DNA from: Pseudoduganella albidiflava
GTDB taxonomy: Bacteria; Pseudomonadota; Gammaproteobacteria; Burkholderiales; Burkholderiaceae_D
NCBI RefSeq assembly: GCF_004322755.1
Contig: NZ_CP036401.1
Location: forward strand, 5,518,001-5,582,000
Direction of reading: 5' to 3'
Length of the DNA stretch: 64,000 nt
Position numbers and translations under genes: made by a program. The notes below the pieces were generated by a model. It had not been told where the DNA came from. It was given only the letters and a program-made list of their open reading frames with translations, and made no database searches. This document shows, piece after piece, positions 25,933 to 62,512 of the stretch. Each line of letters starts with the position of its first letter. The first letter of the stretch is position 1.

Positions 25933-26175
25933 CCACCCCAAGTGCAAATTCCGGGGTCAGGGAGGAATGCTGGCATGCATGCCAGCATCGTTCCGCAGGC
26001 GCGAAGCATGCTTCGCGAAACCCCTGCTTCACCCCGGCGGGGCAGAGCAGGGGTTTCGAGGAGAATTGCTCCTAGCCTGCGTCGCGGTACCGGCATGCAT
26101 GCCGGTACTCCCTCCTGACCCCAGCCCTTCGCCGTTGGGGTGACTGCATGCGCCTTCAATGTGTCGGGTAGCGCT
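25933..26175. repeat. Long modular palindromic repeat, copy 1
   Basis: The left flank CCACCCCAAGTGCAAATTCC (25933-25952) is followed by GGGGTCAGGGAGG. Then come four self-complementary blocks: P1 25967-25988 (arm ATGCTGGCATG), P2 26001-26016 (arm GCGAAGCA), P3 26059-26073 (arm AGGAG), P4 26087-26108 (arm GTACCGGCATG). Between P2 and P3, CGAAACCCCTGCT pairs with AGCAGGGGTTTCG and encloses CCCC-GGC-GGGG. CGCAGGC before P2 pairs with GCCTGCG after P3. The right flank is CCTGACCCC, then GTTGGGGTGACTGCATGC and TCAATGTGTCGGGTAGCGC. The whole can fold as a long stem with side hairpins. Confidence 0.8.
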
Positions 26176-26192
26176 TATCTAAGCGGCATTAA

Positions 26193-27158
26193 TTACAGCC
26201 AGCGGGCTTTCTTGAAGCGGCGATACAGGTAGAAGCACACCGAGAACATCGCCGCCAGCGCCAGCGGATAGCCCCACTTCGACTTCAGCTCGGGCATGAA
26301 CTCGAAGTTCATGCCCCAGATGCCGGCAAATGCCGTCAGCACCCCGAAGATCGCGGCCCATGCCGCGAGGCGCTTGTTAACCTCGCCCTCATCGAGCGCG
26401 ATCATCGACAGGTTCACCTGGATCGCGGTGGCGATGGTGTCGCGGATCGAGTCGAGGATGCCGTTGATGCGGGCCAGGTGGTCGTGCACGTCGCGGAAGT
26501 ATTCCTGGCTGCTGGCGCACACGGCGGGCACGCGGCCGCCGTGCAGCTTGCCGATGGCATCGAGCAGCGGCGCCACGGCGTGGCGCATGGTCATCACCTT
26601 GCGCTTCAGGTCATACAGCCGCTCGATATTGTCGCGCTGCGAAGTGCCCGTGAAGATGCGGTCCTCGATGGCCTCGAGTTCGGACTCGAAGGCATCCACC
26701 ACCGGGAAGTAGCGGTCGACCACCGCATCCATCAGCGCATACAGCACGAAGCCGGCGCCATGCCGGAGCAGGTGCGGCTCGCGCTCGGCACGCGCGCGCA
26801 CGCCGAGGAAGCCGTGCGAGCTGTTCTGGCGCGACGACAGCACATAGTCATGGCCGACGAAGATGTCGATCTCGCCGAGCACGAGTTCATCTTCCCGCTG
26901 CTCGACCGTCTTGACGACGACGAACAGCGAATCGCCGTATTCCTCGATCTTGGGCCGCTGGTGGCCGCGCTGCGCATCTTCCACGGCCAGTTCGTGCAGG
27001 TTGAACTCATGCTGCATCTCGGCCAGCTCGCCCGGCTCCGCATCGCGCATCGCCACCCAGACGAACGTATCGTCGCGCGCGAGGTAGTCGCTGATATCGG
27101 CCGGCGGCAGGTCGGCCAGCTTGCGGCCGTGCTGGTAGGCGACGCAGTTGATCAGCAT
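26193..27158 (-). CDS. corA: Magnesium/cobalt transporter CorA
   Basis: The 321-residue protein has the CorA layout: a cytosolic alpha/beta domain, a long helix and two C-terminal membrane segments at about residues 265-283 and 295-312, joined by the selectivity motif GMN at 282-284 (GMNFEFMPEL). It is expected to form a pentameric Mg2+ channel in the inner membrane. It is isolated: palindromic repeats lie on both sides. Confidence 0.96.
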   Translation of the reverse strand: MLINCVAYQHGRKLADLPPADISDYLARDDTFVWVAMRDAEPGELAEMQHEFNLHELAVEDAQRGHQRPKIEEYGDSLFVVVKTVEQREDELVLGEIDIFVGHDYVLSSRQNSSHGFLGVRARAEREPHLLRHGAGFVLYALMDAVVDRYFPVVDAFESELEAIEDRIFTGTSQRDNIERLYDLKRKVMTMRHAVAPLLDAIGKLHGGRVPAVCASSQEYFRDVHDHLARINGILDSIRDTIATAIQVNLSMIALDEGEVNKRLAAWAAIFGVLTAFAGIWGMNFEFMPELKSKWGYPLALAAMFSVCFYLYRRFKKARWL

Positions 27159-27261
27159 GGAATACCGAGGGAAACGCGTTTCAAGGAAAACCTCCCGACA
27201 GTGACAGGGAGAGCTTAGCTGAAATTCGCTGAATGCCGAGCTTTGGTGTTGGCCGTGGAAA

Positions 27262-27318
27262 ACCGGTGTCAGACACCATTTCCGGGAGATTCATCCGGAA
27301 ATGGTGTCTGACACTGGT
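27262..27318. repeat. Inverted pair of GGTGTCAGACACC palindromes
   Basis: Two 24-base arms (27262-27285 and 27295-27318) pair with one G-T exchange around the loop GAGATTCAT. Each arm also holds its own palindrome around GTCAGAC or GTCTGAC. It lies between corA and ntrC, upstream of corA. Confidence 0.78.
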
Positions 27319-27382
27319 GTTCGCCAGCGTTTCGACTGATCGGCTGGGAATCAGCTGGATTAAGCCGCACTGCGAATTAGTT

Positions 27383-27409
27383 GGATTAAGCCGCACTGCG
27401 GCTTAATCC
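27383..27409. repeat. Hairpin across the ntrC stop codon
   Basis: GGATTAAGCCGC and GCGGCTTAATCC form a perfect 12-bp stem around ACT. The inner arm contains the ntrC stop codon (27403-27405). A second copy of TGGATTAAGCCGCACTGCG lies just upstream at 27356-27374. There is no T-run, so a role in mRNA 3'-end protection is more likely than termination. Confidence 0.6.
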
Positions 27410-28887
27410 TCCTTCGCCCCGTCGATCCCCAGCTCGGCGATCTTGCGCGTGATGGTGTTCCGGCCGATGCCCAGCCGCACGGCGGCATCGTTCTTGCGCC
27501 CGTGCGTGTACTTCAGGGCGGTGCGGATCAGCGCCGACTCGAACTGCCGGCCCAGCACGTCCATCACATCCTGCTGGCCGTCGGACAGCATGGTGGCGGC
27601 CTGCAATTCCAGCAGCGACAGCCAGCCATCCGGGCCCGGCGCGGCGGGAGCCATCACGGCGGCCACCGGCACGCCATGCGCGGCGTGATGCGGCAGCGCC
27701 GCCGCCAGCTCGGGCGCGGCCTGCATGGCGCTCTGCCCTTCGGACAATTCCAGCGGCAAGTCCTTCACTTCCACCGTCTGGCCGGGCGCCATCACGGTGA
27801 TCCAGTTGCACAGGTTTTCCAGCTGGCGCACATTGCCCGGCAAGTCCAGGCTTTGCAGGAAGGCCAGCGCGGCATCGCTCATGCGCTTGGTCTCCACGCC
27901 GAGTTGCCGGGCGCTCTGCACCAGGAAGTGGCGCACCAGGATGGGGATGTCCTCCCTGCGTTCGCGCAGGCTGGGCAGCCGCAGCCGGATCACGTTCAGG
28001 CGGTGGAACAAGTCTTCGCGGAACAGGCCGTCGCGCACGCGCTGTTCCAGGTTCTGGTGCGTGGCCGTGATCACACGCACGTTCGCCTTCAGCGGCTGGT
28101 GGCCGCCGACACGATAGAAGTGCCCGTCGGACAGCACGCGCAGCAGCCGCGTCTGCAGGTCGAACGGCATGTCGCCGATCTCGTCGAGGAACAGCGTGCC
28201 GTTCTCGGCCTGCTCGAAGCGGCCGCGCCGGGTGGCCTGGGCACCGGTGAAGGCGCCGCGCTCGTGGCCGAACAGTTCCGATTCCAGCAAGTCCTTCGGG
28301 ATCGCCGCCGTGTTCAGTGCGATGAACGGCTGCTGCGCGCGCGGGCTGTGCTTGTGCAGCGCGCGCGCCACGAGTTCCTTGCCCGAGCCCGATTCGCCGG
28401 TGATCAGCACCGTCACGTTCGATTGCGACAGCCGGCCGATGGCGCGGAATACTTCCTGCATCGCCGGCGCCTGGCCGAGGATCTCGGGGGTGTCTGCCGG
28501 GCCGGACTCCACGCTGGCTTCGCGCAGGCTTTCGTCCAGCGCGCGGCGGATCAGTTCCACGGCCTTGTCGATGTCGAACGGCTTGGCGAGGTATTCGAAG
28601 GCGCCGCCCTGGAAGGCCGCCACGGCCGAATCCAGGTCGGAAAACGCGGTGATGATGATGACGGGCAGGCCCGGCAGCCGCGACTTCACCAGCGACAGCA
28701 GGTCGAGCCCGGAGTCGCCCGGCATGCGGATATCGGAGACGAGCACCTGCGGCGTCTCGTACTCCAGCGCGGCGATCGCGTCGCGCGCATTGGCAAAACT
28801 CTTGGTGGCGAGGTTTTCCCTCGCTAGTGCTTTTTCCAGTACCCAGCGGATCGATTCGTCGTCATCGACAATCCAGATTGGCTTCAT
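27403..28887 (-). CDS. ntrC: Nitrogen regulation response regulator NtrC
   Basis: The 494-residue sigma-54 activator has a receiver domain with the acidic pocket at DDDE (residues 8-11) and the phosphorylation site Asp52 in VLVSDIRMPGDSG. The AAA+ domain has Walker A GESGSGKE at 164-171 and the sigma-54-contacting GAFTGA loop at 211-216. A Fis-type helix-turn-helix closes the protein (GIGRNTITRKIAELGI). It is expected to activate glnA and other nitrogen genes when phosphorylated by NtrB. The gene follows ntrB by 58 bases. Confidence 0.97.
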   Translation of the reverse strand: MKPIWIVDDDESIRWVLEKALARENLATKSFANARDAIAALEYETPQVLVSDIRMPGDSGLDLLSLVKSRLPGLPVIIITAFSDLDSAVAAFQGGAFEYLAKPFDIDKAVELIRRALDESLREASVESGPADTPEILGQAPAMQEVFRAIGRLSQSNVTVLITGESGSGKELVARALHKHSPRAQQPFIALNTAAIPKDLLESELFGHERGAFTGAQATRRGRFEQAENGTLFLDEIGDMPFDLQTRLLRVLSDGHFYRVGGHQPLKANVRVITATHQNLEQRVRDGLFREDLFHRLNVIRLRLPSLRERREDIPILVRHFLVQSARQLGVETKRMSDAALAFLQSLDLPGNVRQLENLCNWITVMAPGQTVEVKDLPLELSEGQSAMQAAPELAAALPHHAAHGVPVAAVMAPAAPGPDGWLSLLELQAATMLSDGQQDVMDVLGRQFESALIRTALKYTHGRKNDAAVRLGIGRNTITRKIAELGIDGAKED

Positions 28888-28945
28888 ATGTGATGTGCTT
28901 CCCGCAATTTGGATTCATCAGCGACTTCGGCTATCCCTCCCCCGC

Positions 28946-30067
28946 TTATGGCAGGGGCAGCAGGATGCGGAAGTCCGTAAAGCCGGGCCTGCTTTCGCAT
29001 TCGATGACGCCCATGTGCTGGTGCACGAAGGTTTGCGCCAACGTCAAACCCAGGCCGCTGCCGCCATCGCGCCCCGATACCAGGGGATAGAAGATGCGGT
29101 CGCGGATCTGGGGCGGAATGCCCGGTCCGTTGTCGATGATATGCAAATCTAATGCCAGGTTATAACGGACCTTGGCCAGCGTGACCTGGCGTGCCACGCG
29201 GGTGCGGAACGTGATCTGCGCATCGCCCGTTTCGATGCGTTCGGCCAGCGCCTGCGCCGCGTTGTGGACGATGTTCAGCACCGTCTGGATCAGCTGCTCC
29301 TTGTCGCCGCGGAATTCGGGCAGGGAAGCATCGTAGTCGCGCACGATCTGCAGGCCCGTGGGGAACTCGGCCAGGATCAGGCTGCGCACGCGCTCGAGCA
29401 CTTCGTGGATGTTGACGTCGCCCACGATGTGCGGACGGCGGTGCGGCGCCAGCAGGCGGTCGACCAGCGTCTGCAGCCGGTCCGCTTCCTTGATGATCAC
29501 CTGCGTGTACTCGCGCAGCTGCTGCAGGTGCAGCGGCGGCAATTCCATCTCGAGCAGCTGTGCCGCGCCGCGGATGCCGCCCAGCGGGTTCTTGATTTCA
29601 TGGGCCAGGTTGCGGATCAGTTCCTTGTTGACCTGGCTCTGGTCCAGCAGCCGCTCTTCGCGGTCCAGCTTCATCTGCTGCACGGTCTCGCGCAACTCCA
29701 GCAGCACGTTGCCATCCGGCTCATCCATCGCGCTGGCGATGGCATGCACGTGCAGCGGTTCGCGGGCCGGGCGCTCCAGCGTCAGCTCTTGCCGCAGGTC
29801 GGAAAACTTGTGGGCGCGCGCCTGCGTGATCACATGTTCGAATTCGGCCGGGTTGGAAAACAGGTCGCACAGCCGCTGTCGCGACAGGGCCTTCAGCGAG
29901 CTTTCCAGCATGTTCTCGGCCGCCGCGTTGGCAAAGGCGATGCGGCCGCCGGCATCCACGATCACCACGGCGGACGCCAGCAGGTCGAGGCCCGCGAGCG
30001 TGTGCGAACGCGGGATGGCGCCCGCCGCCGCAGCGGCGGCACGGGCGATATTGGTCACAATTTTCAT
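28946..30067 (-). CDS. glnL: Nitrogen regulation sensor kinase NtrB
   Basis: The 373-residue histidine kinase has an N-terminal PAS domain (about residues 25-130), the phospho-acceptor His156 in NLAHEIKNPLGG, and an ATPase domain with the N box (QTVLNIVHNAAQA), DNGPGIP, and GGSGLGLTLAQ. No membrane segment is present, in line with a cytosolic kinase controlled by PII. Its ATG overlaps the stop codon of the upstream DUF4124 gene by four bases, which suggests translational coupling. Confidence 0.96.
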   Translation of the reverse strand: MKIVTNIARAAAAAAGAIPRSHTLAGLDLLASAVVIVDAGGRIAFANAAAENMLESSLKALSRQRLCDLFSNPAEFEHVITQARAHKFSDLRQELTLERPAREPLHVHAIASAMDEPDGNVLLELRETVQQMKLDREERLLDQSQVNKELIRNLAHEIKNPLGGIRGAAQLLEMELPPLHLQQLREYTQVIIKEADRLQTLVDRLLAPHRRPHIVGDVNIHEVLERVRSLILAEFPTGLQIVRDYDASLPEFRGDKEQLIQTVLNIVHNAAQALAERIETGDAQITFRTRVARQVTLAKVRYNLALDLHIIDNGPGIPPQIRDRIFYPLVSGRDGGSGLGLTLAQTFVHQHMGVIECESRPGFTDFRILLPLP

Positions 30068-30597
30068 CGTATGTTGGCGATCTCGCGCTGTAGTGCTGCC
30101 ACGTTCTGTTCCGAGCGGGCGATGGCGTCGCGCAGGCTGGCCACCCGCTCCTGGTACTTGGCGTAGTTGCGCTCGTCACCGCGCCGTTCCGGCTCGCCGT
30201 TGTTGAATTCACGGCGCAACTCGCCCAGCTTCTGCATTTCGGCGTTCAGTTCGTCGGTCAGGATCTGGCGGCGGTCGGCATCGCGGGCCTTCTGTTCCGC
30301 CGTGTTCACGCGAGGAAACGCCACCGGGCCCGGGCTGGCGGCTCGCGGCGCCGGGCTGGCCGCCGGTGCGGGCGCCAGTGGACGTGGCCGTGTCGCCTCC
30401 CTTGGCGGCGGTGCCGGAATGGCCGCATTCGGCAAATCCAGCAGCACGCATTGCTTGCCGCGGATCTGGCGATCCGTGTATTCCTTGCGCCCTTCGGCAT
30501 CCGTGCAGCGGTAGATCTGGGCCGAAGCGCCAGCGGTGGCCGTGAGCAAAAACAGTAACAACGAGCAGCGTGCGATCATGCCCCGACTATACAACAA
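30064..30597 (-). CDS. DUF4124-type secreted protein
   Basis: The 177-residue product has a signal peptide (LLLFLLTATAGASAQ) followed at once by the DUF4124 pattern IYRCTDAEGRKEYTDRQIRGKQC. A proline/alanine-rich linker (about residues 58-95) and a coiled-coil-like, charged C-terminal region follow. Function is unknown. The gene stands between glnA and ntrB, an order frequent in Burkholderiales, and overlaps ntrB by four bases, so it is made with the two-component system. Confidence 0.85.
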   Translation of the reverse strand: MLYSRGMIARCSLLLFLLTATAGASAQIYRCTDAEGRKEYTDRQIRGKQCVLLDLPNAAIPAPPPREATRPRPLAPAPAASPAPRAASPGPVAFPRVNTAEQKARDADRRQILTDELNAEMQKLGELRREFNNGEPERRGDERNYAKYQERVASLRDAIARSEQNVAALQREIANIR

Positions 30598-30600
30598 CCG

Positions 30601-30636
30601 AAAAAAAACGCGAGGAAGGCTGCTGCCCTCCCCGCG
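30601..30636 (-). terminator. Terminator after glnA
   Basis: On the minus strand CGCGGGGAGGG pairs with CCTTCCTCGCG (two G-U pairs) and is followed by eight Ts, 39 bases past the glnA stop. It would separate glnA from the DUF4124-ntrB-ntrC genes, perhaps partially. Confidence 0.82.
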
Positions 30637-30675
30637 TCGATCGCTACCGGTCCAAGACGTCCGGCAGCTTCGCCA

Positions 30676-32091
30676 TTACAGCGAGTAGTACATGTCGAAC
30701 TCGACCGGGTGCGTGGTCTGGCGCATGCGGGTCACTTCCGTCATCTTCAGTTCGATGTAGGCATCGATCATCGAATCGGTGAACACGCCGCCGCGGGTCA
30801 GGAACTCGCGGTCCTTGTTCAGGTGATCCAGCGCTTCTTCCAGCGATGCGCAGACGGTCGGGATCAGCGCGTCTTCTTCCGGCGGCAGGTGGTACAGGTC
30901 TTTCGACGCTGCTTCGCCCGGGTGGATCTTGTTCTGCACGCCGTCCAGGCCGGCCATCATCAGCGCGGCGAAGCACAGGTACGGGTTGGCCAGCGGATCC
31001 GGGAAGCGCGTCTCGATGCGGCGGCCTTTCGGGTTCGCCACGTGCGGGATGCGGATCGATGCGGAACGGTTGCGTGCCGAGTAGGCCAGCTTCACCGGTG
31101 CTTCGTAGCCAGGTACCAGGCGCTTGTACGAGTTGGTGCCCGGGTTGGTGATCGCGTTCAGCGCCTTGGCGTGCTTGATGATGCCGCCGATGTAGTACAG
31201 CGCGAAGTCCGACAGGCCGGCATAGCCGTCGCCGGCGAACAGGTTCTTGCCGTCTTTCCAGATCGACTGGTGCACGTGCATGCCCGAGCCGTTGTCGCCC
31301 ACGACCGGCTTCGGCATGAAGGTGGCGGTCTTGCCGTAGCTGTGCGCCACGTTCCAGATCACGTACTTCATGTTCTGCGTCCAGTCGGCGCGCTCGACCA
31401 GGGTCGAGAACTTGGTGCCGATTTCATTCTGGCCGGCGCCGGCCACTTCGTGGTGGTGCACTTCGACCGGGATGCCCATCGATTCGAGGATCAGGCACAT
31501 TTCCGAGCGCATGTCCTGGAACGAATCGACCGGAGGCACCGGGAAGTAGCCGCCCTTGACGGTCGGACGGTGGCCGCTGTTGCCGCCTTCGATGTCCTTG
31601 TCGGTCGACCACGACGCTTCGTCGGAGTCGATCTTGACCATCGCGCCGGACATGTCGATCTTCCACTTCACGGAGTCGAAGATGAAGAATTCCGGTTCCG
31701 GGCCGAAGTAGGCGGTGTCGCCCAGGCCGGACGATTTCAGGTACGCCTCGGCGCGCTTGGCGATCGAACGCGGATCGCGGTCGTAGCCCTTGCCGTCCGA
31801 CGGTTCGATCACGTCGCACTGCATGAACAGCGTGGTTTCTTCGAAGAACGGATCGATGTTGGCGGTGCTCGGGTCCGGCATCAGGATCATGTCGGATGCT
31901 TCGATGCCTTTCCAGCCTGCAATGGAAGAACCGTCGAAAGCATGGCCGCTTTCGAACTTGTCGATATCGAAGTGGGACACAGGCACGGTCACGTGCTGCT
32001 CTTTACCACGGGTATCGGCGAAACGGAAGTCGACGAACTTGACTTCGTTGTCTTTGACCAATTGCAGGACTTCTTCGGCGGTACGTGCCAT
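30676..32091 (-). CDS. glnA: Glutamine synthetase, type I
   Basis: The 471-residue enzyme makes glutamine from glutamate and ammonia. It has the family signatures [10 protein letters not shown], the ATP-binding [16 protein letters not shown], and the adenylylation region DLYHLPPEE, in which Tyr400 is the expected target of GlnE. Length fits the dodecameric bacterial type I-beta enzyme. It has its own sigma-54 type promoter and is followed by a terminator and then the ntrB-ntrC operon. Confidence 0.98.
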
Positions 32092-32154
32092 TACTCATCT
32101 CCTAAGTGAAAAGGGCTGCCGTCACATTGTGCGGCGGTAACTCGCGTACTGTAA

Positions 32155-32170
32155 TGCACGAAGCGTGCCA
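32155..32170 (-). promoter_or_regulatory. Sigma-54 type promoter of glnA
   Basis: Read on the minus strand, TGGCACGCTTCGTGCA matches the -24/-12 consensus TGGCACG-N4-TTGCA with one mismatch and exact spacing. It lies 64 bases before the glnA start, which puts the transcription start near 32144. Confidence 0.8.
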
Positions 32171-32259
32171 GCATTAAGCTTCTATCCATATGCGGCGAGT
32201 TACATTGATCTTGCTCCCTACGGAAACTAAAATCATCCGTACGGAAACGTGCGGCGAAA

Positions 32260-32332
32260 TGCACCAGGATTGCGCATCCGAGAGTTCGCCCAACTTTGGT
32301 GCAGATAGACCATTTTGCACCAATTTCGACCA
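32260..32332. promoter_or_regulatory. Candidate NtrC enhancer sites
   Basis: TGCACCA half-sites, as in known NtrC operators, occur at 32260-32266, 32297-32303 (inverted) and 32316-32322. The first extends to a 17-base imperfect dyad (TGCACCA-GGA-TTGCGCA). They lie about 115-190 bases upstream of the predicted glnA start site, the distance typical for NtrC enhancers. Confidence 0.65.
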
Positions 32333-32427
32333 CCGCGCCCCAAAATGTGGCATACGTATCCAGGGCGAAATTTTCCTCGATACAAGCCCTTCGATGATAG
32401 AGACAGTTCCCAAGGATTTAACGCCAA

Positions 32428-32883
32428 ATGAGCACCAACGACATTCTCGAGCGCGCCCGCGAGCGCGGCAATGGCCTGCCCTATGCTGGCGCAGTCACGC
32501 CCCAGGAAGCGCACCAGCTGATCCAGGGCAACCCGACCGTACGCCTCATCGACGTGCGCACCAATGCCGAGCGCGACTGGGTGGGACGGGTGGCGATCGA
32601 TGACGCGCAGCATGGCGCCGTCCAGTGGAGCACCTATCCGGGCGGTGTACCGAACCCGGCGTTCGTCCAGCAGCTGAGCGCCATCGCCGGCAAGGACGAC
32701 GTGCTGCTGTTCCTGTGCCGTTCCGGCGTGCGCTCCCGGCATGCCGCGAAGCTGGCCACCGAAAACGGCTTTGCCAACAGCTTCGATATCCTGGAAGGCT
32801 TTGAAGGCGACAAGGATGCCGAGGGGCATCGCAAGAGCGTGGGCGGGTGGTGCAAGGCGGGGCTGCCCTGGGTGGGGGCCTGA
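32428..32883 (+). CDS. Rhodanese-like sulfurtransferase domain protein
   Basis: The 151-residue single-domain protein has the rhodanese fold, with RLIDVRTNAERDWVG and the active-site loop LCRSGVRS holding Cys97. Such proteins carry persulfide sulfur or act in redox control; the substrate cannot be told. It is divergent from glnA and shares the 336-base control region, so NtrC sites could in principle affect both. Confidence 0.9.
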   Translation: MSTNDILERARERGNGLPYAGAVTPQEAHQLIQGNPTVRLIDVRTNAERDWVGRVAIDDAQHGAVQWSTYPGGVPNPAFVQQLSAIAGKDDVLLFLCRSGVRSRHAAKLATENGFANSFDILEGFEGDKDAEGHRKSVGGWCKAGLPWVGA

Positions 32884-32898
32884 GCATCGCTGGAGGCG

Positions 32899-33110
32899 TT
32901 ACCCCCAACGGCAGAGGCCGGGGTCAGGGAGGAGTGCTCGCTGGCAGGCGAGCACTGCTAGGCCGGCAAGGAGCGATGCTCCTCGAAACCCCGGCTAGGC
33001 CCGCCGGGGTGCCACAGGGGTTTCGCGGAGCATGCTCCGCGCCTGCGGCACGGTGTGAGCCTGCAGGCTCACACTCCTCCCTGACCCCAGCGTTTGCTTT
33101 GGGGTTGAAT
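32899..33110. repeat. Long modular palindromic repeat, copy 2
   Basis: The same frame as the repeat at 25933 but with the inner part reversed. GGGGTCAGGGAGGAG at 32920-32934 pairs perfectly with CTCCTCCCTGACCCC at 33074-33088. Inside lie P1 32933-32956 (arm AGTGCTCGC), P2 32969-32983 (arm AGGAGC), P3 33025-33040 (arm GCGGAGCA) and P4 33052-33073 (arm GTGTGAGCCTG). CGAAACCCC and GGGGTTTCG frame the centre. The palindrome sequences differ from copy 1, yet each stays self-complementary. Confidence 0.8.
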
Positions 33111-37127: not shown

Positions 37128-37158
37128 CGTGGAGCGGAGTGGGTGACGCAGGGAATTC

Positions 37159-37209
37159 ACGGAGCATGCTCCGTGCCTGCGGAACGCTGCGGCCTTGCCA
37201 GGCCGCAGC
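37159..37209. repeat. Half copy of the modular palindromic repeat
   Basis: ACGGAGCATGCTCCGT (37159-37174), then GCCTGCGGAACG, then a 9-bp hairpin (arm GCTGCGGCC, 37186-37209). This matches the P3-spacer-P4 half of the copy at 32899 and the reverse complement of the P1-P2 half of the copy at 25933. It lies immediately before the TAXI gene. Confidence 0.75.
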
Positions 37210-37312
37210 CGGCACGACGGTTGAGTAGCAATTTCATCATAGGTGGCACGATGCCAACAAATGGTGAAAGGTGCAAGGGAAATGGCGGATGAAACGGGCT
37301 AGCGCATTCATT

Positions 37313-37409
37313 TACCCCAGAGGCAGATGCCGGGGTCAGACCCGGCGGGTCTGACCCCAGCTTTTCGCTGTTGGGGTGAATGCATGCATTTCAACGTGTC
37401 GGGTAACGC
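37313..37409. repeat. Short form of the GGGGTCAG repeat
   Basis: Left flank TACCCCAGAGGCAGATGCC, hairpin 37332-37358 (GGGGTCAGACCCG paired with CGGGTCTGACCCC around a single G), right flank GTTGGGGTGAATGCATGC followed by TTTCAACGTGTCGGGTAACGC. The right flank is shared with the long copy at 25933 and the short copy at 52551. Confidence 0.78.
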
Positions 37410-52522: not shown

Positions 52523-52749
52523 GGTGACAGTCACCAATGCCGTTAAGTTACGCGTTACGCGACACATTGAAAGTGCATGCATTCACCCCAACAGCGAAGG
52601 ACTGGGGTCAGACCCGGCGGGTCTGACCCCGGAATTTGCACTTGGGGTGGCCTGTCTCAAAAAAATGGTGACAGTCACCATTTTCTGCTTCTGCTGGTGC
52701 GGCTCCAGGCACAAGTCCCGGGGGAATGTTTCCAAAAAAACGGTGACAG
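52523..52749. repeat. Cluster of three palindromic repeats before the IS
   Basis: GGTGACAGTCACC occurs at 52523-52535 and 52667-52679, and its first eight bases at 52742-52749 where the IS begins. The copies at 52523 and 52742 share a longer upstream part (CCGGGGAAAAGTTTC and CCGGGGGAATGTTTC followed by seven As). Between the first two lies a short GGGGTCAG element, described separately. No gene is seen in 52403-52749. Confidence 0.75.
52551..52652. repeat. Short form of the GGGGTCAG repeat, reversed
   Basis: In reverse orientation to the copy at 37313. CGCGTTACGCGACACATTGA and TGCATGCATTCACCCCAAC lead to the hairpin 52604-52630 (GGGGTCAGACCCG with CGGGTCTGACCCC), then GGAATTTGCACTTGGGGTGG. 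The last block is the exact reverse complement of the left flank of the long copy at 25933. Confidence 0.78.
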
Positions 52750-62182: not shown

Positions 62183-62212
62183 CAGCCCGCCTACCAATCC
62201 GCTCGGCCTCCT

Positions 62213-62466
62213 GCCGAGCCCGTGTCAGGGGGTCAGGCACTATGACACGGGCTCGGCTATAACTTATCGCTCGAGCCCGTGTCAGGGGGTCAGGCACTGT
62301 GACACGAGCTCGGCCATAGCTCGGACTACTTACGCCCTATGCGCAGTCGGAAAACAAGCGTAACTCTTGCTGAGTTCGTGTCAGGGGGTCAGGCACCATT
62401 ACACGAACTCAACCATAGCGCTGTAGCTCAGCTCGTGTCACAGGGTCAGGCACCATGACACGGGCT
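62213..62466. repeat. Four hairpins with a shared loop
   Basis: Hairpins at 62213-62257, 62272-62312, 62371-62411 and 62430-62466 each have a stem ending in CGTGTCA/TGACACG and a loop like GGGGGTCAGGCAC. The first stem is 15 bp and perfect. The third has GAGTTCGTGT paired with ACACGAACTC, where two bases have changed on both sides compared with the first. No T-runs follow. They fill most of the 390-base gap. Confidence 0.8.
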
Positions 62467-62512
62467 CGGCTGCAACTCTCTGCCGTCATCGTGGTCGCCC
62501 ACCTTGCTTAAC

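Follow-up and report, generated by a model that had tools for sequence, protein, structure and literature searches.

A double-hairpin unit of about 70 nt in REPIN-type repeats of Pseudoduganella albidiflava: a probable non-autonomous mobile DNA element lodging in palindromes

Pairs of inverted repetitive extragenic palindromic (REP) sequences are known as REPINs (REP doublets forming hairpins), and are described as having a conserved 16-mer at both ends and a hairpin in the spacer (passages of PMC3116915). Small palindromic repeats may also sit inside other palindromes, as reported for dimers of GTAG/CGTC REPs within larger palindromes of A. variabilis, T. roseum and H. neapolitanus (passages of PMC3733652), and the mitochondrial double-hairpin and hairpin-forming elements of fungi and sponges are short hairpin repeats scattered between genes, those of Allomyces being without flanking duplications (passages of PMC2800124). 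Here we describe two composite repeats in a stretch of 64,000 nt of Pseudoduganella albidiflava (assembly GCF_004322755.1, contig NZ_CP036401.1, positions 5,518,001 to 5,582,000), hereafter called the window. Each combines a frame of the REPIN type with two inserted units of about 70 nt that consist of two hairpins. This double-hairpin unit is probably a non-autonomous mobile DNA element of an undescribed kind, one that settles in palindromes and, in this genome, is carried along by REPIN-type repeats as well, which agrees best with one of the roles proposed in a first-pass annotation of the window, that of a non-autonomous REP-like mobile element.

That annotation had described two copies of a long repeat, sharing a frame and carrying four different palindromes each, and both are present as described. 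Each core runs from GGGGTCAG to CTGACCCC (25953-26122, 170 bp, in copy 1 and 32920-33088, 169 bp, in copy 2), and both copies are REPIN-like inverted pairs of GGGGTCAG palindromes in which each arm holds one double-hairpin unit. Two inverted units account for the four palindromes of each copy; the palindromes are real, but the natural unit is half of the long repeat first proposed, and what had been taken for an inverted inner part is the reversed order of an A-type and a B-type unit in a nearly symmetric frame. Compared with dinucleotide shuffles, the single-strand fold of copy 1 gives z -9.8 as DNA and -11.8 as RNA, and that of copy 2 gives -9.4 as RNA. Comparison of one-unit, two-unit and unit-free copies yields a base repeat, GGGGTCAG^ACCCCGGCGGGGT^CTGACCCC, within the frame CACCCCAAGTGCAAATTCC...AGCCCTTCGCCGTTGGGGTG, the caret marking where one strand or both carry the piece of about 70 nt. 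The outer frame is a repeat in its own right and is also seen without units, as in two unit-free frames of the window; unit-free arms of one type number 157 genome-wide at up to 3 mismatches (a count that includes the unoccupied arm of some one-unit copies), with 0 matches for the reversed control. With two inverted REPs, a short spacer and many copies, the outer frame is a REPIN or bacterial interspersed mosaic element (BIME), which it resembles in its inverted GGGGTCAG palindromes, high copy number and intergenic position, and from which the composite differs by the separate double-hairpin insert in each arm, a feature unmentioned in the available passages of PMC3116915. The earlier statement that no named element has this plan therefore does not apply to the frame, but it stands for the 70-nt unit as far as Rfam and the literature searched are concerned.

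Composites of this kind are numerous in the genome of P. albidiflava. The motif GGGGTCAGGGAGG occurs 87 times genome-wide with at most one mismatch (5 times for the reversed control), and copy 1 as a query matched 88 stretches (the best 40 of 295 candidates) in 40 places, copy 2 being located by its own separate search. Both outer motifs are present in 28 of the 40 places (L006-L033, L006 being copy 1), spanning exactly 170 bp in 25 of them and 169, 171 and 179 bp in the remaining three. A 29th two-unit locus (L042) has a degenerate left end, and the other 11 places hold the one-unit version, accompanied at L034 by a second, separate unit.

The unit is ordered as G(G/A)AGGA, H1, CG, stem S (..GCAGG), C, H2, GAAAC, the returning stem S' (CCTGC..) and CCCC. 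H1 is a palindrome of 22 nt with a small loop or none, and H2, of 16-17 nt, is enclosed by stem S. This stem, unmentioned in the first-pass annotation, covaries as well (GCAGG/CCTGC, GCCGG/CCGGC, GTCGG/CCGAC), and outside the stems GGAG, CGTT and GAAAC are conserved. Among 158 aligned rows, partial ones included, we found 82 distinct H1 and 56 distinct H2 strings. As a rule a given H1 type goes with a given H2 type, and mosaic units are few (for example L245 and L206, the latter joining a B-type H1 to an A-type S/H2). Exchange of palindromes between units, which had been suggested earlier, thus finds weak support in such mosaics; it appears to occur, and would be minor relative to paired substitution.

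Paired substitution was assessed in five alignments. In A1, a MAFFT alignment of 20 chosen units whose structure was assigned by eye after inspection of the sequences, 98.3% of the 400 cells are standard pairs, two-sided changes occur at 14 of the 20 pairs, and covariation scores 0.512, compared with 0.177 for shuffled alignments and at most 0.10 when the pairing partners are slid. The others (A2-A5) were fitted to R1, a covariance model built from the unit alignment and then used to gather units, and are hence biased toward the R1 structure. In the two sets from relatives (A2 and A5; 38 and 40 distinct rows) two-sided changes occur at 16 of 20 pairs and the scores are 0.686 and 0.631; in the two sets from P. 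albidiflava (A3 and A4; 65 and 79 distinct rows) they occur at 14 and 17 of 20 pairs, with scores of 0.384 and 0.447. Copy 1 is present in both of the latter; A3 also retains two weak matches that overlap, and in A4 some of the nested units are partial. Over all alignments, scores of 0.38-0.69 compare with 0.14-0.18 for shuffled controls and at most 0.12 for slid partners, so the first-pass view that the fold is conserved while the sequence changes holds genome-wide, far above both controls. With identical rows counted once per alignment, 3981 of the 4110 pair cells of A2-A5 are Watson-Crick, 28 are G·T (0.7%), 70 are A·C and 31 are other mismatches, the G·T count excluding the innermost H1 pair and, in the sets from relatives, the innermost H2 pair too. 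The outer six pairs of H2 are fully Watson-Crick in 121 of the 158 rows. Since nearly all changes replace a Watson-Crick pair by a different Watson-Crick pair, they point to symmetry of the DNA rather than to a G·U-tolerant RNA, and near-perfect DNA palindromes seem to be maintained.

It could still be argued that the unit is a structured RNA (a stabiliser in the 3' untranslated region, a terminator or a small RNA) selected at the transcript level, as the first-pass annotation also contemplated. Such an RNA would fit the strong covariation, the conserved residues outside the stems and the placement at gene 3' ends: with a coding-frame heuristic, 30 loci lie between convergent genes, 23 between tandem genes and 1 between divergent genes, the orientation being unclear at the other 54 of 108 loci. 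In all four sets A2-A5, moreover, A·C exceeds G·T more than twofold, as wobble on the opposite strand would produce, and this lean hints that the fold of the opposite strand may be the one that matters, in rows that share ancestry. However, G·T and A·C together make up less than 3% of the cells, against 10% for G·T alone in four tRNAs of these genomes (9 of 90 pairs, a small yardstick), copy number varies from 0 to at least 150 inside one genus, and none of the Rfam families attains its gathering score in 10 unit loci (13.4 kb; six weak matches, the best to a microRNA-precursor hairpin family, E 6e-4, far under its cut-off). The scarcity of G·T pairs in particular makes a function as RNA quite improbable.

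A search with R1 identified at least 150 places in the genome of P. albidiflava, one further unit being found besides. Within the genus, matches were obtained in 37 of 60 genomes and none in the other 23, the number of units per genome being at least 84 in P. albidiflava, 45-75 in five others and 1-5 in many. Within the family, with the number of matches per genome capped, 66 of the 116 genomes have a match, and so do 28 of the 44 genera (P. albidiflava included in all these counts). Beyond it, a match came from only 1 of the 273 other genomes of a class sample, with a score of 42 bits under stricter filters (E at most 1e-5), and the same order contributed few of the genomes listed. In that genome, which belongs to another family of the class (G266, L356), two weak matches of 42 bits lie 149 bp apart with identical aligned sequence, the S/H2 half being well conserved and the H1 half not. 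BLAST with a P. albidiflava unit matched two records of Cupriavidus metallidurans, and in strain CH34 the unit was confirmed by R1 at 66 bits, at a site without an annotated feature; BLAST of plasmids and phages with the unit of a relative gave no match. R1 had no match in 80 chance loci (608 kb): a pattern scan for the central stem had returned at least 120 stretches, and the 80 loci examined proved to be chance occurrences. A loose regular expression for units was likewise rejected, as it admixed noise. No description of the 70-nt unit turned up in the literature searched by title and start of abstract, subscription journals lying mostly outside the search, and the available passages of PMC2817692, PMC6006769 and PMC2267715 do not describe it.

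The contexts of the units bear on whether they are anything more than a part of their REP. Among 156 unit rows of P. albidiflava, the 5' flank is the GGGGTCAG REP in 108, GTG(C/T)C(T/A)G in 11, GGGGAC(A/T)G in 7 and GGAGCCTG in 1, the other 29 being other, shifted, tandem or nested; CAG directly precedes the unit in 109 rows. At least four classes of 5' sequence thus precede units. They also stand in tandem, with a period of 70 (three units in L237) or 72 (two units in L247), and one unit is nested within another at L001 and L259. In two loci of relatives (L048 and L316) a unit is lodged inside H2 of an older unit; at L316 the older stem GATGGG/CCCATC and H2 GGACGG/CCGTCC flank the inner one. 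In other genomes, the two flanks of a unit are complementary at a score of at least 10 in 7 and of at least 8 in 13 of 66 loci, the corresponding shares of mismatched pairings being 1.0% and 6.9% (the 66 were taken from 90 R1 matches after removal by hand of twice-fetched places, near-identical neighbours and a contig-end locus). The palindromic setting is clear in P. albidiflava and partial elsewhere. In three loci of relatives (L049, L056 and L065), units alternate with a direct repeat (e.g. CATGGGGAAATTCGTGAATAA) in arrays of the form R-U-R or R-U-R-U-R. Another REP type, CGTGTCA...GGGGTCAGGCAC...TGACACG, forms a unit-free array at 62209-62480 of the window and carries units elsewhere in the genome (L233, L247, L252).

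One could assume instead that the composites are an ordinary REPIN/BIME family with extra spacer hairpins, the 70-nt part being copied only along with its REP. The 108 of 156 rows that belong to a single REP type, the block-amplified appearance of the two-unit composites and the compensatory changes known in REPIN spacers (passages of PMC3116915) all agree with that explanation. It is nevertheless unlikely, given that the unit also occurs in other REP types, in tandem, within itself and outside evident REPs in other genera, and that at L219 it differs from a related genome by a precise indel, at odds with REP-bound copying.

Presence and absence were compared in relatives. The convergent genes around copy 1 directly adjoin in G151, G142 and G169, where composite 1 is wholly absent and units are found at other places. 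For the related genome G134 we used 680 kb syntenic with the region around the window, where a different repeat lies between the genes flanking copy 1. Of 16 unit loci tried, L007 and L252 (a single flank) and L023 (flanks more than 4 kb apart) were dropped, and one later-found unit was left out. None of the 13 comparable orthologous gaps (copy 1, copy 2, L201, L202, L205, L206, L212, L219, L222, L237, L242, L243 and L256) holds a unit in G134. Most contain other REPs or little; those of L202 and L205 contain a unit-free repeat of the same frame, the orthology of that repeat being uncertain. The third unit of the window is also missing at its place in G134, and the gap holds a different unit further on (L405:10968). 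The REP content of the 13 orthologous gaps is almost wholly different in the two genomes, flanks being roughly 85-95% identical; REP turnover between P. albidiflava and G134 is very fast, and whole composites come and go between relatives.

At the level of the unit, L219 is the clean site. There G134 has the palindrome GGGGACAGG-CCCGCAGGG-CCTGTCCCC, and P. albidiflava has exactly 72 extra nt, which are the unit, with no duplication at the unit and with diverged palindrome arms. Immediately to the left of the inserted unit, about 150 bp are tandemly duplicated in P. albidiflava (L219:104-401), and this duplication too is absent from G134. At this single site, neither the terminal inverted repeats nor the target-site duplication of miniature inverted-repeat transposable elements (MITEs) moved by DDE transposases were found. 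The unit resembles ERIC, NEMIS and other bacterial MITEs, which are non-autonomous repeats of 70-300 bp (passages of PMC3733652), and differs from them in just these respects. It shares with GTAG/CGTC REP dimers the insertion of small palindromic repeats into other palindromes, but those repeats measure 20-40 bp and bear GTAG/CGTC tags, according to passages of the same source, whereas the unit consists of H1 and a stem-enclosed H2 with GGAG. The likeness to the mitochondrial elements is one of architecture alone, and we claim no sequence relation; those are mitochondrial, whereas here many copies lie in the centres of palindromes.

Which enzyme would insert the unit is a separate question. 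Elements of the IS200/IS605 type have ends formed by two hairpins (left end, LE, and right end, RE). The unit is alike in having two hairpins and possibly a single-stranded DNA (ssDNA) substrate, but lacks a single target tetranucleotide common to all contexts, a strand bias and an internal gene. P. albidiflava encodes five Y1 transposases resembling RAYT, the REP-associated tyrosine transposase (L001-L005), surrounded by differing repeats. Units adjoin two of the five genes (L001 and L005), there inside other REPs, and one unit-free frame copy lies on one side of L002, where it could be a chance neighbour given the copy number and the five genes. A RAYT as the unit's own mobiliser is unsupported by gene neighbourhood in relatives, as detailed below. 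TnpA-REP proteins cut next to a REP hairpin bearing a GTAG motif, at a CT or CA (passages of PMC8266576). The unit has GGAG in place of GTAG, and C(A/T) is enriched at its 5' junction: after removal of five window rows and de-duplication, it stands at -3 in 20 of 40 P. albidiflava flanks (other offsets average about 4) and at -2 in 21 of 55 flanks of relatives (other offsets average about 6). Insertion of the unit by an HUH route is a tentative suggestion. It could also be that a DDE or IS110-type transposase favouring REP loops inserts a mobile unit, which overlaps with the reading we prefer; several insertion sequences insert specifically into REPs (passages of PMC1525189), and units show no fork-strand bias (37 of 82, with origin and terminus roughly placed by coarse GC skew). 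Without terminal inverted repeats or target duplication at L219, such an enzyme appears rather doubtful.

In the reading we prefer, two layers are superimposed. The first is a REPIN-type repeat of two inverted GGGGTCAG palindromes, seen with or without insertions. The second would be a non-autonomous double-hairpin DNA element of about 70 nt, a family observed as such whose mobility is suggested by the comparisons with relatives. Its place would be the middle or the loop of a palindrome, in P. albidiflava mostly directly 3' of C(A/T)G, with at most one unit per REPIN arm and hence 0, 1 or 2 per REPIN. The composites of P. albidiflava would have spread chiefly as REPIN passengers, which is the simplest view of them; elsewhere in the family the unit stands in other repeats or alone. 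At the putative insertion step, a Y1 HUH nuclease of the RAYT/TnpA-REP type may process single-stranded H1 where a CA or CT dinucleotide adjoins a tetranucleotide rich in G. The palindromes would then diverge by paired changes as Watson-Crick symmetry is maintained, through selection on an ssDNA or cruciform fold or through templated correction from arm to arm. That the units represent a distinct class of mobile DNA, of about 70 nt, recognised by fold and inserting into hairpin loops including those of its own kind, in which copying between arms keeps Watson-Crick symmetry while the sequence drifts, is a possibility we consider speculative.

Several observations weigh against a mobile element lodging in palindromes. 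Many copies in P. albidiflava are not independent insertions, since composites have been amplified, and the ends of the unit rest on alignment. Not all of the 158 rows, but 117, keep Watson-Crick pairing throughout the outer eight pairs of H1. In relatives the flank score is 7 or less at 53 of 66 loci, and high scores at L055, L065 and L275 come at least partly from a palindromic repeat on either side of the unit rather than from a single palindrome into which the unit is set. Part of the CA signal of relatives comes from a conserved CTTGCA, perhaps a piece of the unit itself, and offset -6 reaches 18 of 55. The indel at L219 could be a precise deletion in G134, the arms of the P. albidiflava palindrome having diverged, and deletion in G134 is possible at any single site. 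As to the enzyme, a candidate only can be named and none is tied to the unit: the balance between fork strands noted above fits poorly with an HUH route, and none of 30 PF01797 loci of relatives carries a unit (out of 53 matches in 22 relatives, with 24 of the 30 in unit-bearing genomes, some perhaps IS200-type rather than RAYT and some near contig ends).

Table 1. Composite repeats, double-hairpin units and unit-free frames in the window
Feature	Position	Strand	Basis
Composite 1: two double-hairpin units inserted in a REPIN-type frame (CACCCCAA...TTGGGGTG)	25934..26142		Sequence, fold, unit-free frames
REP core GGGGTCAG, left arm of composite 1; unit starts directly after CAG	25953..25960	+	Sequence
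Double-hairpin unit A of copy 1, 70 nt	25961..26030	+	R1, 92.2 bits at 25961-26028; 3' end (26030) deduced from unit-free copies
Palindrome H1 of unit A, ATGCTGGCATGCATGCCAGCAT, loopless	25967..25988	+	Sequence; covariation alignment
Palindrome H2 of unit A, GCGAAGCATGCTTCGC, inside stem S GCAGG/CCTGC	26001..26016	+	Sequence; covariation alignments
Double-hairpin unit B of copy 1; H2 26058-26074, H1 26087-26108	26043..26114	-	R1, 85.1 bits at 26046-26114
REP core GGGGTCAG, right arm of composite 1	26115..26122	-	Sequence
Composite 2: plan as composite 1, unit order opposite, palindromes different	32902..33107		Sequence, fold
B-type unit of copy 2; H1 32934-32955, H2 32968-32984	32928..32999	+	R1, 83.4 bits at 32928-32996
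A-type unit of copy 2, palindromes GTGTGAGC.. and GCGGAGCATGCTCCGC	33010..33080	-	R1, 84.5 bits at 33013-33080
Third, isolated unit, without GGAG leader, GAATTC variant, outside any REP	37147..37214	-	R1, 65.2 bits
Unit-free REPIN-type frame (empty comparison), GGGGTCAGACCCGGCGGGTCTGACCCC	37313..37378		Sequence
Second unit-free REPIN-type frame	52584..52649		Sequence

If the double-hairpin unit is indeed such an element, a large bacterial family harbours a mobile element, about 70 nt long and hitherto undescribed, that has REPs among its homes; within a single genus, some lineages have it in abundance, and in others it was not found. It would offer a natural experiment in which palindromes change in sequence and yet stay symmetrical, and a substrate defined by its fold with which the enzyme might be found. 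It would also account for the long and complex palindromes that lie at the 3' ends of genes in P. albidiflava, and would caution against taking the covariation of such palindromes as proof of RNA function.

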